Assembly: GCA_026390435.1 (NCBI GenBank)
Contig: JAPLFY010000138.1
Span: 1 to 46,830, forward strand
Length of the DNA stretch: 46,830 nucleotides
Reading direction: 5' to 3'
Source of the DNA: Pseudomonadota bacterium
GTDB lineage: Bacteria; Bdellovibrionota_B; Oligoflexia; Oligoflexales; CAIYRB01
The notes beneath the pieces were generated by a model. The model had not been told where the DNA came from. It saw only the letters and a list, made by a program, of their open reading frames with translations, and did no database searches. The position numbers and the translations under genes were made by a program. Shown here piece after piece: positions 40,780-44,211 of this stretch (position 1 is the stretch's first letter; each line of letters starts with the position of its first letter).

Positions 40780-41664
40780 TCACTCAATAATTTTCTCTAT
40801 GGGTACCACTAAAATGGAGGTAGCCCCAGCTTGCTTGAGTCCTTCCATCGTTTCCCAAAAAATCGGTTCAGGCGCCACAGCGTGAATCGCGACGCGCTGT
40901 TTATCGCCGTAAAGTGGGATCACTGTTGGTTCCTCTAGCCCAGGTATGACTCGCCGAATCGCATCAACAGCTGATGCGGGAGCGTTCATCATAATATATT
41001 TGACCTGCTCTGCCCGAACGACCCCTGAGAGGCGTGCCGTTAGCCTTTCGATACCGGTGAGAATCTCGTCGTCTAGCGGCTTTGCCGTCCGCACCAATAC
41101 CGCTTCGCTACTATAGACCACTGCTATTTCGACCAAATGGTTAGCCGACAGCGTGGCACCAGAGGACACTAAGTCACAGATAGCATCGGCCACACCCATG
41201 GTCGGCGCCACCTCCACCGACCCACTGATCTCCACGATGTCTGCACTGACTTTCTGCGCCAGTAAATATTGCCTGAGGCTATCCGGATACGACGTAGCGA
41301 TTCTTTTACCCGCTAGTGCGCTGATGTCTTTAATTCCCGCGCCACTAGGCACAGCTATACTCAAACGGCAGCGACCGAATTCAAGCGTGCGCAAAGTCAC
41401 TACTTTACCTGCCTGACCCCGAGCATCCAGCCGCTCTGCAATCATGTTGCTACCGACGATACCCAGATCACAGATACCATCCGCAACGTACTGCGGAATG
41501 TCGTCATCGCGAACTAACATCACATCGAGTGGAAACGCGGCCGCGCGGCAATGCAACTGACCAGAGCGCCATTCAATTCCAATCCCAGCACGCGCGAGCA
41601 GATCTCGGCTACGGTCGCTCAAACGGCCGGATTTTTGCATAGCCAGGCGCAGTCGCTTACTCAT
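40780..41664 (-). CDS. hisG: ATP phosphoribosyltransferase, long form
   Basis: First committed enzyme of the pathway. LRLAMQKSGRLSDRSRDLL and RDDDIPQYVADGICDLGIVG are the catalytic-domain motifs, and SGATLSANHLVEIAVV contains the PRPP-binding part. The last 80 or so residues (MMNAPASAVDAIRRVIPGLE, ATSILVVPIEKII) form the regulatory ACT-like domain. So it is the histidine-inhibited long form and does not need HisZ. It overlaps the upstream TrpR-like gene by 4 bp. Confidence 0.96.
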   Translation of the reverse strand: MSKRLRLAMQKSGRLSDRSRDLLARAGIGIEWRSGQLHCRAAAFPLDVMLVRDDDIPQYVADGICDLGIVGSNMIAERLDARGQAGKVVTLRTLEFGRCRLSIAVPSGAGIKDISALAGKRIATSYPDSLRQYLLAQKVSADIVEISGSVEVAPTMGVADAICDLVSSGATLSANHLVEIAVVYSSEAVLVRTAKPLDDEILTGIERLTARLSGVVRAEQVKYIMMNAPASAVDAIRRVIPGLEEPTVIPLYGDKQRVAIHAVAPEPIFWETMEGLKQAGATSILVVPIEKIIE

Positions 41665-41981
41665 GAGTTACTCTCCATGTCAGCTTCAGATTTATTGATT
41701 TTCGCGAGGACGCCGCGGTATCCGCCTTCGCCATACGCAACAGCACGAGCGACGCGAGTCACCGTTGCTGTGCTTACTCCCGTTTTTTCGTAGATACGCC
41801 TGTAAGGTATCCCTACCGCGATCATCTGAGCCACCTGCCACCGATCAGCCAAAGCCGTCAGTTCCCCCGGGGTGCACAAGTCGACCAGAAACTTGCGACA
41901 CTCCTCAGCAGACTCCATCGCAACCAGGGCCTGGCACAGATGGCGCAGCTGCTGTGACTGAGTTTTGCTGGACTGACGCAT
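41661..41981 (-). CDS. TrpR/YerC-like transcriptional repressor at the head of the his operon
   Basis: The 106-residue protein matches the YerC/YecD branch of the TrpR family: helices AEECRKFLVDLCTPGEL and TALADRWQVAQMIAVGIPYR precede the helix-turn-helix YEKTGVSTATVTRVARAVAY. In TrpR the equivalent surface binds tryptophan; here histidine is a likely corepressor because the gene overlaps hisG by 4 bp. I chose the ATG at 41981; a TTG at 42002 would add seven residues. A near-perfect 20-bp palindrome lies at 42003-42022, about 20 bp upstream. Thus this is probably an autoregulated repressor of the whole operon. No His-rich leader peptide is seen. Confidence 0.85.
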   Translation of the reverse strand: MRQSSKTQSQQLRHLCQALVAMESAEECRKFLVDLCTPGELTALADRWQVAQMIAVGIPYRRIYEKTGVSTATVTRVARAVAYGEGGYRGVLAKINKSEADMESNS

Positions 41982-42002
41982 AGTTACACCCGTCTGTATC
42001 AA

Positions 42003-42022: not shown

Positions 42023-42220
42023 CTAGCACGGATTGGTAACACGCAGCTATCCCGTCTGCAAGTAAAACCAGCCTAGTCCCCACCGGCTCCGGACTCCCTC
42101 TTCGCAATAGGAGAGATCCTACTCAGTCGAATGTGGGCGCTGTGTTTTTTTTGCTTTAAAGTAAGCTACACTGGGAGCATGATTCCCAGCATAATACCAA
42201 GCTCTCCGAAGGAGTTGCCC

Positions 42221-43165
42221 GTGGCCAAGAAAAGCAAATCCGGTAAGAAAAAGACGGTCGCCAAGAAGAAGAAAACGACGGCCACTAAAGCGAAAAAGAC
42301 CGCTAAAAAGGTGACCAAAGCTAAGGCAAAAAGCACCAAAAAAACCGCAAAAAAAGTAGCAAAAAAGACCGCAAAAAAAGCTACTAAGAAAGTTACGAAA
42401 AAAGCTGGATCCGCAGCAAAAAAGACCGCAAAAAAAGTAGCCAACAAGCCGAGCAAAAAAACCGTAACCAAAGCGAAGGCCGCACCCGCGAAAGCCAAAG
42501 CGAAGGCCGCACCCGCGAAAGCCAAAGCGAAGGCCGCGCCCGCGAAAGCCAAAGCGAAGGCCGCGCCCGCGAAAGCCAAAGCGAAGGCCGCACCCGTGCA
42601 AGCCAAAGCCAAAACCGTGACCAAAGCTAAAAAGCCAGCTGCCCCGAAGAAGGCAGCCCCCACCACTGCGGCTACAGTAACTCCGTCTGAGGCGGCCCAT
42701 TTGCCACAAGTGGGTGACCACGCCCCAGAGTTCACGCTCGCTACCGACCAGGGCACTACCGTGAGTCTGCACGATTACCTTGGTAAAAAGAACGTCGTGC
42801 TCTACTTCTACCCGAAAGACGACACCCCTGGCTGCACCAAGGAAGCCTGCACCTTCCAAGAACACTTGGATCATTTCACGGCTACAGACACCATCATCGT
42901 TGGCGTCAGCCCAGATGACACCGCATCGCATGGTAAATTTCGCCAGAAATACAGCCTCAGCTTCCCCCTCGGCGCTGATGTCGATAGTAGCGTCGCTACC
43001 AGATACGGCGTCTGGGGCGAAAAAAGCATGTACGGCCGCACCTACATGGGTGTGAGCCGAGCCACATTCCTGATCAACAAACACGGCAAAATCGCTGCTG
43101 TCTGGCCAAAAGTTAAGGTCGATGGGCATAGCGAAGAAGTGCAGGCAGCTATAGCCGCCCTTTAG
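42221..43165 (+). CDS. Peroxiredoxin (Bcp/PrxQ type) fused to a histone-H1-like Lys/Ala-rich arm
   Basis: AAGGAG at 42209-42214 fixes the GTG at 42221. Residues 1 to about 155 are almost only Lys, Ala, Thr, Val and Pro (AKKSKSGKKKTVAKKKK; KKTAKKVAKKTAKKATKK; repeated AAPAKAKAK), like bacterial histone-H1-type proteins. From about residue 161 (LPQVGDHAPEFTLATDQG) a complete peroxiredoxin follows, with peroxidatic C205 and resolving C210 in TPGCTKEACTF. The C-terminus ends AAVWPKVKVDGHSEEVQAAI. The basic arm should bind DNA or other polyanions and bring a thiol peroxidase to the nucleoid. No signal peptide is present. Confidence 0.9.
   Translation: MAKKSKSGKKKTVAKKKKTTATKAKKTAKKVTKAKAKSTKKTAKKVAKKTAKKATKKVTKKAGSAAKKTAKKVANKPSKKTVTKAKAAPAKAKAKAAPAKAKAKAAPAKAKAKAAPAKAKAKAAPVQAKAKTVTKAKKPAAPKKAAPTTAATVTPSEAAHLPQVGDHAPEFTLATDQGTTVSLHDYLGKKNVVLYFYPKDDTPGCTKEACTFQEHLDHFTATDTIIVGVSPDDTASHGKFRQKYSLSFPLGADVDSSVATRYGVWGEKSMYGRTYMGVSRATFLINKHGKIAAVWPKVKVDGHSEEVQAAIAAL
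42470..42604 (+). repeat. 27-bp tandem repeat coding for AKAAPAKAK units
   Basis: Five 27-bp units, the first four nearly identical and the fifth diverged at its end, encode the Lys/Ala/Pro repeat in the basic arm. The length keeps frame, so copy number may vary between strains. Confidence 0.9.
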
Positions 43166-43305
43166 GCGAGTGAAGTTAGCTCTGATTTGATCTAATATCG
43201 CGAGCTCCCGACTTAGGGGGTTCGCGTGCTAGCCGCCTGCCCCACTCCTAAAGCCGTCCCCCAAATTTGCCGATGATAACCAACAGATATTGTGGGAGCC
43301 GGCAG

Positions 43306-44211
43306 ATGCTCAATTTGATTTTTTCCAAAAGTCACTTAATAAGCTGCGCAGCCTTTCTGGTTAGCGTTTTGTTTAGTGCGTGCAAGACAACCAGAAGTTC
43401 GCGGGTGGCAAACACCAGCGCTGTGCCCTACTGCAAGCCCTCGGTGCTTGATACCAATCATTCGGGTATAGGCACAGAAAACGAAAAACCCTGCCGCATC
43501 GCCTCCTACTGCCCTCGCGACATGGAAGACAACGATGGGGATGGCTGGGGTTGGAGCAACAATCAAAGTTGCAGGATTGCGCCGATTTGCAGCAACCCGG
43601 CCAACACCGGTGATGGCTGGGGCTGGGAGAATCAGCAAAGCTGCCGAGTTAAAGCCGACCAGACAAACAACTATTCAGACCAGCAGTTAAAAAACAAAGG
43701 TTCACGGGACCTGATCAAATTCGAAACAACTTACTATCCCTTTGGCCTTGAGAGTTACTTTACTACTGCCTGCGGTGACGCACAGGCCTACGGTGGCATG
43801 TATGTCGCCGTCACCGAAAAATCGCCACTGTGGCCAGAAGAATGCGAGCTCGACAGCTGGGCATCTTGTGCGGACAGCGACTGCATGGGCAAATGGGACA
43901 GAATACCTGGAGATGCCAAGCGGGAAATCTACGGCAAACGTGAGGTGCGCGAGCCGCGCTGCAACGTTCCGTGTGGCAAAAAAATAACTATTTATAACGA
44001 AGCCAAATCGCTATCAACCACCGCAGTAATTTATGATGCTTGTCCATCACAACATTGGAATAACAGGTTCAAAGAGGTCAGCGAAGGTAAGAATCCCTGT
44101 GCCAAAGGTCTCATGCACCTCGATTTGCGTAAGCCACTTTATCAGTACCTAAACGGCGGCATGGTTAGCGACAATATCAAGGTTTGGGTGGATGCGACAT
44201 CGGGGCCATGA
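43306..44211 (+). CDS. Lipoprotein with two CBM10-like motifs and an expansin/GH45-like domain
   Basis: GGGAG lies upstream of the ATG at 43306. The signal peptide ends in SVLFSAC, a lipobox. Two short motifs DGDGWGWSNNQSCR and GDGWGWENQQSCR match the Gly-Trp-Gly-Trp-Glu-x-x-x-Ser-Cys core of carbohydrate-binding module 10. The C-terminal half has double-psi-barrel wording: TACGDAQAYGGMYVAV, CNVPCGKKITIYNEA, TTAVIYDACPSQHWNN and MHLDLRKPLYQYL, as in RlpA/expansin and GH45-like proteins. It probably binds and loosens plant or microbial cell-wall polysaccharides at the outer membrane. Whether it has hydrolase activity cannot be decided. Confidence 0.82.
   Translation: MLNLIFSKSHLISCAAFLVSVLFSACKTTRSSRVANTSAVPYCKPSVLDTNHSGIGTENEKPCRIASYCPRDMEDNDGDGWGWSNNQSCRIAPICSNPANTGDGWGWENQQSCRVKADQTNNYSDQQLKNKGSRDLIKFETTYYPFGLESYFTTACGDAQAYGGMYVAVTEKSPLWPEECELDSWASCADSDCMGKWDRIPGDAKREIYGKREVREPRCNVPCGKKITIYNEAKSLSTTAVIYDACPSQHWNNRFKEVSEGKNPCAKGLMHLDLRKPLYQYLNGGMVSDNIKVWVDATSGP

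Follow-up and report, generated by a model that had tools for sequence, protein, structure and literature searches.

Known peroxiredoxins and polycationic tails with reported or proposed links to DNA

Peroxiredoxins of the PrxQ family are thioredoxin-type, usually monomeric, atypical 2-Cys enzymes (see PMC6590489). The closest solved relatives of the protein analyzed here are the PrxQ/Bcp (Bcp, bacterioferritin comigratory protein) enzymes from Burkholderia (5enu) and Xanthomonas (PrxQ, 5iiz/5ima), which share with it the fold (TM 0.93 to 5enu), the PxxxTxxC motif and the active-site Arg, and show approximately 40-45% identity in the structural alignment to the top chains. Unlike this protein, the matched solved bacterial chains comprise about 150-180 residues, too few to accommodate a long basic arm. 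Association of Bcp with DNA is already a published idea. Both DNA binding and DNA protection in vitro have been reported for BCPs, with the physiological relevance left open (PMC8945050; PMC4416765); the work cited in these two papers includes that of Hicks et al. (2010, J Bacteriol 192:2077), on a DNA-binding Bcp from Coxiella burnetii, and that of Lee et al. (2016), on the protection of DNA by BCP. Compared through the citing papers, the Coxiella protein resembles the present one in being a PrxQ/Bcp that is proposed to act on DNA. In yeast, the nuclear thiol peroxidase Dot5 (nTPx) contributes in a minor way to genome stability (PMC2688748) and belongs to the same fold group (Foldseek hit 2a4v, TM 0.83 by target length, a comparison that covers the truncated solved chain); however, Dot5 is eukaryotic and is sent to a membrane-bound compartment.

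The second relevant group consists of proteins with long, disordered Lys/Ala(/Pro) repeat tracts joined to another domain, namely AlgP and PhaF of Pseudomonas, whose tails are believed to connect their cargo with the nucleoid; the KPAA C-terminal domain of AlgP yields DNA-binding peptides and is required for granule positioning (PMC9239181). In these proteins, in contrast to the one described below, the tail is C-terminal and attached to a helical or phasin domain, and it carries a granule (polyphosphate or PHA) instead of an enzyme. More generally, Lys-rich low-complexity tracts are enriched among DNA-binding bacterial proteins (PMC6821194). Thus, each half of the architecture is known separately, but no description of an H1-like/peroxiredoxin fusion was found in the literature searched, mostly outside subscription journals, and an H1-like arm on PrxQ appears to be undescribed as a recurrent architecture.

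A PrxQ/Bcp peroxiredoxin with a lysine-rich N-terminal arm

The window, by which we mean the whole stretch of 46,830 nucleotides that was analyzed, contains a gene in which both elements are joined (hereinafter, PrxQ proteins with such an N-terminal tract are denoted armed PrxQ). Its features are as follows.

42209..42214, forward strand: Shine-Dalgarno sequence AAGGAG, spaced 6 nt from the GTG start
42221..43165, forward strand: coding sequence of the armed PrxQ/Bcp peroxiredoxin, 314 aa, GTG start, TAG stop
42221..42691, forward strand: Lys/Ala-rich N-terminal arm, residues 1-157, net charge about +57, predicted disordered, without a Pfam family
42468..42609, forward strand: 27-bp tandem repeat, 5.3 copies, 96% match, in-frame unit KAKAAPAKA
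42707..43162, forward strand: PrxQ/Bcp peroxiredoxin domain, residues 163-314, identified by Pfam, NCBIfam, PDB sequence, AlphaFold and Foldseek
42833..42835, forward strand: codon of the peroxidatic Cys205 (PxxxTxxC motif), invariant in 23 armed homologues
42848..42850, forward strand: codon of the resolving Cys210 (CxxxxC, atypical 2-Cys), kept in most, not all, armed homologues
43058..43060, forward strand: codon of the conserved active-site Arg280, invariant in 23 armed homologues

A preliminary description of this DNA had proposed, at the same coordinates, a Lys/Ala-rich arm derived in part from a 27-bp tandem repeat and fused to a complete Bcp-type peroxiredoxin with both Cys, and our analysis bears this out: the repeat is in frame, as is the whole arm with the domain that follows it. 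The AhpC/TSA domain is complete at residues 163-308 (Pfam PF00578, 3.9e-39), with Cys205 and Cys210 within PKDDTPGCTKEAC and the motif residues P198, T202 and C205 accompanied by R280; the resolving Cys210 lies five residues past the peroxidatic Cys205, the arrangement characteristic of 2-Cys PrxQ. The score against the NCBIfam model PRK09437 (thioredoxin-dependent thiol peroxidase) exceeds the cut-off (141.5 bits vs 140), and that against the narrower PrxQDein model falls below it (161.9 vs 260). The nearest PDB sequences are the Bcp/PrxQ enzymes from Burkholderia and Xanthomonas; the AlphaFold model, for which the input included 23 armed homologues, adopts the PrxQ fold with pLDDT of 92-98 from residue ~160 to 314, and Bcp/PrxQ structures rank first in the Foldseek search (TM 0.93 by target length). 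The domain is therefore a PrxQ/Bcp peroxiredoxin with the fold and catalytic residues intact, and the armed protein can be predicted to possess thioredoxin-dependent peroxidase activity. Neither the peroxidatic Cys nor its Thr nor the active-site Arg varies across the 23 armed homologues compared, which indicates that catalysis is under strong constraint. The resolving Cys is missing in some armed PrxQ (L099, L148, L149 and L080, with CTVEARDF or CTTESKDF at the active site), so that armed proteins would include 1-Cys forms alongside the 2-Cys ones.

The arm, counted over residues 1-158 with V for the GTG start, contains 58 Lys (37%) and 49 Ala (31%), carries a net charge of +57 and is devoid of C, D, F, H, I, L, M, R, W and Y. 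AlphaFold assigns pLDDT of ~46-57 to residues 1-160 and no secondary structure to the arm, which is thus predicted to be a long, disordered, polycationic N-terminal extension. Disordered, K/A/P-rich, strongly basic and repeated, it conforms to the type of the histone H1 tail and of the AlgP/PhaF tracts. The term 'histone-H1-like' that was originally applied to it is accordingly apt for the composition of the tail but does not extend to family membership: there is no Pfam match to the globular winged-helix domain of linker histones and no fold in the AlphaFold model of the arm, and a Pfam search with the arm alone returned nothing at E<=1, the Hc1/Hc2 families included, although low-complexity filters may hide weak matches. 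On the strength of these profile searches, true histone H1 or bacterial Hc1/Hc2 membership was rejected. Export, which would have contradicted a role on the chromosome, was rejected as well, given that the arm lacks a hydrophobic segment (the longest hydrophobic run is 2 residues); the armed protein is thus predicted to remain in the cytoplasm.

Evidence that the arm is kept as protein in congeneric genomes

Positional orthologues of the gene were identified in four genomes of the same genus (G001, G003, G004 and G005), beside trpR-like, hisG and hisD genes. In the window, the gene is flanked on one side by the trpR-like gene and the his operon and on the other side by a gene for a CBM_10-domain protein. 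At 40780-42002 on the reverse strand, the Trp-repressor-family gene overlaps hisG by 4 bases and heads the his cluster; the trpR-like/hisG/hisD cluster is divergent from the peroxiredoxin gene and its order is kept in the four congeners. Immediately 3' of the peroxiredoxin gene, at 43267-44211 on the forward strand, lies a gene for a Cys-rich, secreted-looking protein with two CBM_10 motifs; this gene adjoins the peroxiredoxin in G004 and G005 and is unmatched in the compared stretches of G001 and G003. We considered the neighborhood as a possible functional clue and rejected it as such: the conserved trpR-like/hisG/hisD order demonstrates orthology and implies no functional link. There is no PrxQ match in the congener G002 or in G006, the other sampled member of the family, so the gene is either dispensable or missing from those assemblies.

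In every congener orthologue, the start codon (GTG or ATG) coincides with the beginning of the Lys-rich arm and lies behind a ribosome-binding site, and in G004 and G005 AAGGAG precedes the GTG start with spacing identical to that in the window. These start signals bear on the possibility, raised together with the original proposal, that translation starts at the peroxiredoxin domain only, in which case the true protein would be a plain PrxQ beginning at about residue 158, with an untranslated frame upstream. Internal TTG and GTG codons with weak SD-like sites do occur upstream of the domain, and the antisense strand is open across the arm as well (42119-43129 and 42166-42756, both on the reverse strand; these ORFs look like composition shadows of the arm and not like genes). 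Nevertheless, with a strong SD and a GTG or ATG at the first residue of the arm in the window gene and all four congeners, and with the pattern of indels and substitutions described next, we regard a misannotated start as extremely improbable.

Within the genus, the arm varies in length from 103 to 193 aa and in net charge from +39 to +57. The arms of G001 and G003 differ by four indels, all of them multiples of 3, and by substitutions distributed over codon positions 1/2/3 as 9/10/22, with Lys retained at 52 of the 54 aligned Lys positions. G004 and G005 have diverged at 43 of 101 residues in the arm and at 10 of 158 in the peroxiredoxin domain, yet each arm has stayed K-rich (+39 and +43); over a larger distance, Lys is less well kept, 17 of 46 aligned Lys positions having changed between G000 and G005. 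The retention of the arm by the orthologues, the restriction to in-frame indels and the third-position excess argue that the arm is more than a chance feature, and maintenance of charge while sequence and length drift is the pattern expected for a tract that is selected for charge. Judged from these alignments, neither an untranslated leader nor a neutral expansion would be expected to show this pattern.

Distribution and phylogeny of armed PrxQ

The armed architecture is not unique to the window but recurs across several phyla. Among distinct PrxQ/Bcp frames from genome collections, a Lys-rich upstream tract was detected on 30 of 186, in a sample picked by similarity, so that this fraction is no estimate of frequency. 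All 13 members of the clade that consists of the family of the window organism and a second family of its order have the arm; this clade is found in both trees described below, with modest support (89 and 58). Outside the two-family clade, PrxQ arms are uncommon: in approximately 58 best-matching loci drawn from two larger groups, only four carry an armed PrxQ (L207, L212, L221 and L242). Elsewhere, armed PrxQ with arms of 21-131 residues were identified in an uncultured planctomycete (L015), a Kryptonia-like genome (L021), a Bdellovibrionales bin (L074) and several Pseudomonadota (L018, L063, L080 and others), and a further armed branch (L099, L148 and L149), with sister sequences that lack the arm, lies inside the class of the window organism. 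The shortest arms consist of 21-25 residues with a net charge of +8 to +9.

The arm state has to change 11 times on the tree of the enzyme domain only (165 rows) and 12 times on the mixture-model tree (78 rows). Forcing all armed rows into one clade was rejected (AU p = 1.8e-5), which rules out a single ancestral origin of all armed PrxQ as one clade. Because many internal branches are poorly supported, several rows come from metagenome bins that may be misnamed, and gains are indistinguishable from losses, the safe wording for this history is more than one origin or many losses. Judging from the trees, the arm probably arose independently several times.

The distribution also weighs on two alternative views of the arm. 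Under the first, it is a functionless low-complexity expansion that arose by repeat slippage and is tolerated at a free N-terminus, as the near-perfect 27-bp repeat and the variable arm length within the genus might suggest. However, the Lys codons mix AAA and AAG and all four Ala codons are used, unlike what one slipped unit would produce; Lys is almost completely preserved in the close pair G001/G003; and the arm is present throughout the two-family clade and appears to have been regained independently, always basic and always N-terminal, next to sister peroxiredoxins that have none. Hence this view seems very unlikely. Under the second, the arm itself is the protective element, coating or condensing DNA in a Dps-like manner, with the peroxidase domain secondary or serving as a releasing redox switch. 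With up to 193 aa and a net charge of up to +57, the arms reach the size of stand-alone H1-like proteins, and in vitro DNA protection by BCP has been reported (PMC8945050), but DNA condensation is hardly to be expected from arms of 21-25 residues, and the invariant catalytic residues speak against a secondary enzyme; we consider this possibility improbable, though less so than slippage.

The arm is specific to PrxQ in the genomes compared

Of 20 further peroxiredoxins taken from armed genomes or their relatives (Prx1/AhpC-type proteins and PrxQ with signal peptides), none carries a Lys-rich arm. Three f8 genomes (G020, G026 and G032) encode, in addition to the armed PrxQ, a second PrxQ with a signal-peptide-like N-terminus; these paralogues (L256, L257 and L258, respectively) as well as L259-L263 have a TPGCTKQACAFRD-type active site and are, from their N-termini, probably periplasmic. 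When the genome of the window organism was searched with three Lys-rich codon patterns, the matches were mainly the armed PrxQ gene itself, and these patterns together with a scan of the loci obtained yielded only two other long Lys-rich frames. One of these, L136 (contig C32, near 36600), is a 162-residue frame with a very basic opening stretch, VAKKTKRKKLAKKKTAAKWKTLVRKKVKRKPPRKKVKRR; the other, L289 (contig C82, near 18000, reverse strand), is a stand-alone Lys/Ala-rich ORF of ~72 residues with a TTG start after GAGGAG and a hairpin and T-run downstream, and is likely, from its sequence features, to be an H1-like nucleoid protein of the source organism. With only these two additional ORFs, the arm is not commonplace in its own genome, and K-rich tails as a general habit of this genome can be dismissed. 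Taken together, the absence of arms from the other 20 peroxiredoxins and the paucity of Lys-rich frames indicate that the arm is specific to the PrxQ enzyme. The N-terminus of PrxQ therefore looks like an address label, which would specify export for one PrxQ and, in the form of a polycation, a different destination for the other.

A proposed model of peroxidase tethering to DNA

The model proposed here builds on the architecture itself, the start site of the arm in the congeners, its conserved charge and predicted disorder, the intact catalytic domain, and the restriction to PrxQ. The recurrence of an arm joined to a peroxidase in bacteria suggests an enzyme that is stationed on DNA or another negatively charged polymer. 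By analogy with AlgP and PhaF, we favor, with moderate confidence, the interpretation that the arm anchors a cytoplasmic PrxQ to a polyanion, most likely chromosomal DNA, so that peroxides are reduced near DNA. The arm would contact the polyanion by charge, without sequence specificity, as is thought for the KPAA tails, and an otherwise freely diffusing, normally monomeric enzyme would be held on the main polyanion of the cell. Peroxides would then be reduced beside DNA, ahead of iron-driven hydroxyl radical formation, and the DNA might additionally be shielded by the arm. The identity of DNA as the ligand, the location in the cell, the peroxidase activity and the protective benefit are what we infer from sequence.

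The strongest rival interpretation is that the arm tethers the peroxidase not to the chromosome but to a different polyanion, for instance in polyphosphate granules, ribosomes or RNA condensates, because AlgP itself, an H1-like protein, marks polyphosphate granules and requires its KPAA domain for granule spacing (PMC9239181). Lys-rich tracts are found also in ribosomal and RNA-binding proteins (PMC6821194), and polycations in principle bind RNA and polyphosphate as well as DNA. Neither the sequence nor the neighborhood (trpR-like gene, his operon, CBM_10), however, contains any hint of polyphosphate or ribosomes, and we deem such a ligand unlikely, if clearly less so than the other alternatives. 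Anchoring to chromosomal DNA thus remains the preferred interpretation.

Implications

Beyond the individual protein, we tentatively suggest, as a serious possibility that we stop short of favoring, that a nucleoid-addressed peroxidase evolved repeatedly, with peroxide defense split among an exported PrxQ, free cytosolic AhpC-type enzymes and a chromosome-bound PrxQ. If true, this split defense would be a bacterial counterpart, in cells that lack a nucleus, of the nuclear thiol peroxidases. If the arm does anchor the enzyme to DNA, local peroxide damage would be met by a scavenger positioned at the target, not by a higher bulk level of the enzyme. The recurrence of the arm on one enzyme family provides natural replicates for asking whether the position of a peroxidase affects mutation and survival, a question that is difficult to address as long as the enzyme diffuses freely. 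Finally, the Lys/Ala-rich N-terminal arm, short or long, is a simple candidate module for sending an enzyme to the nucleoid.
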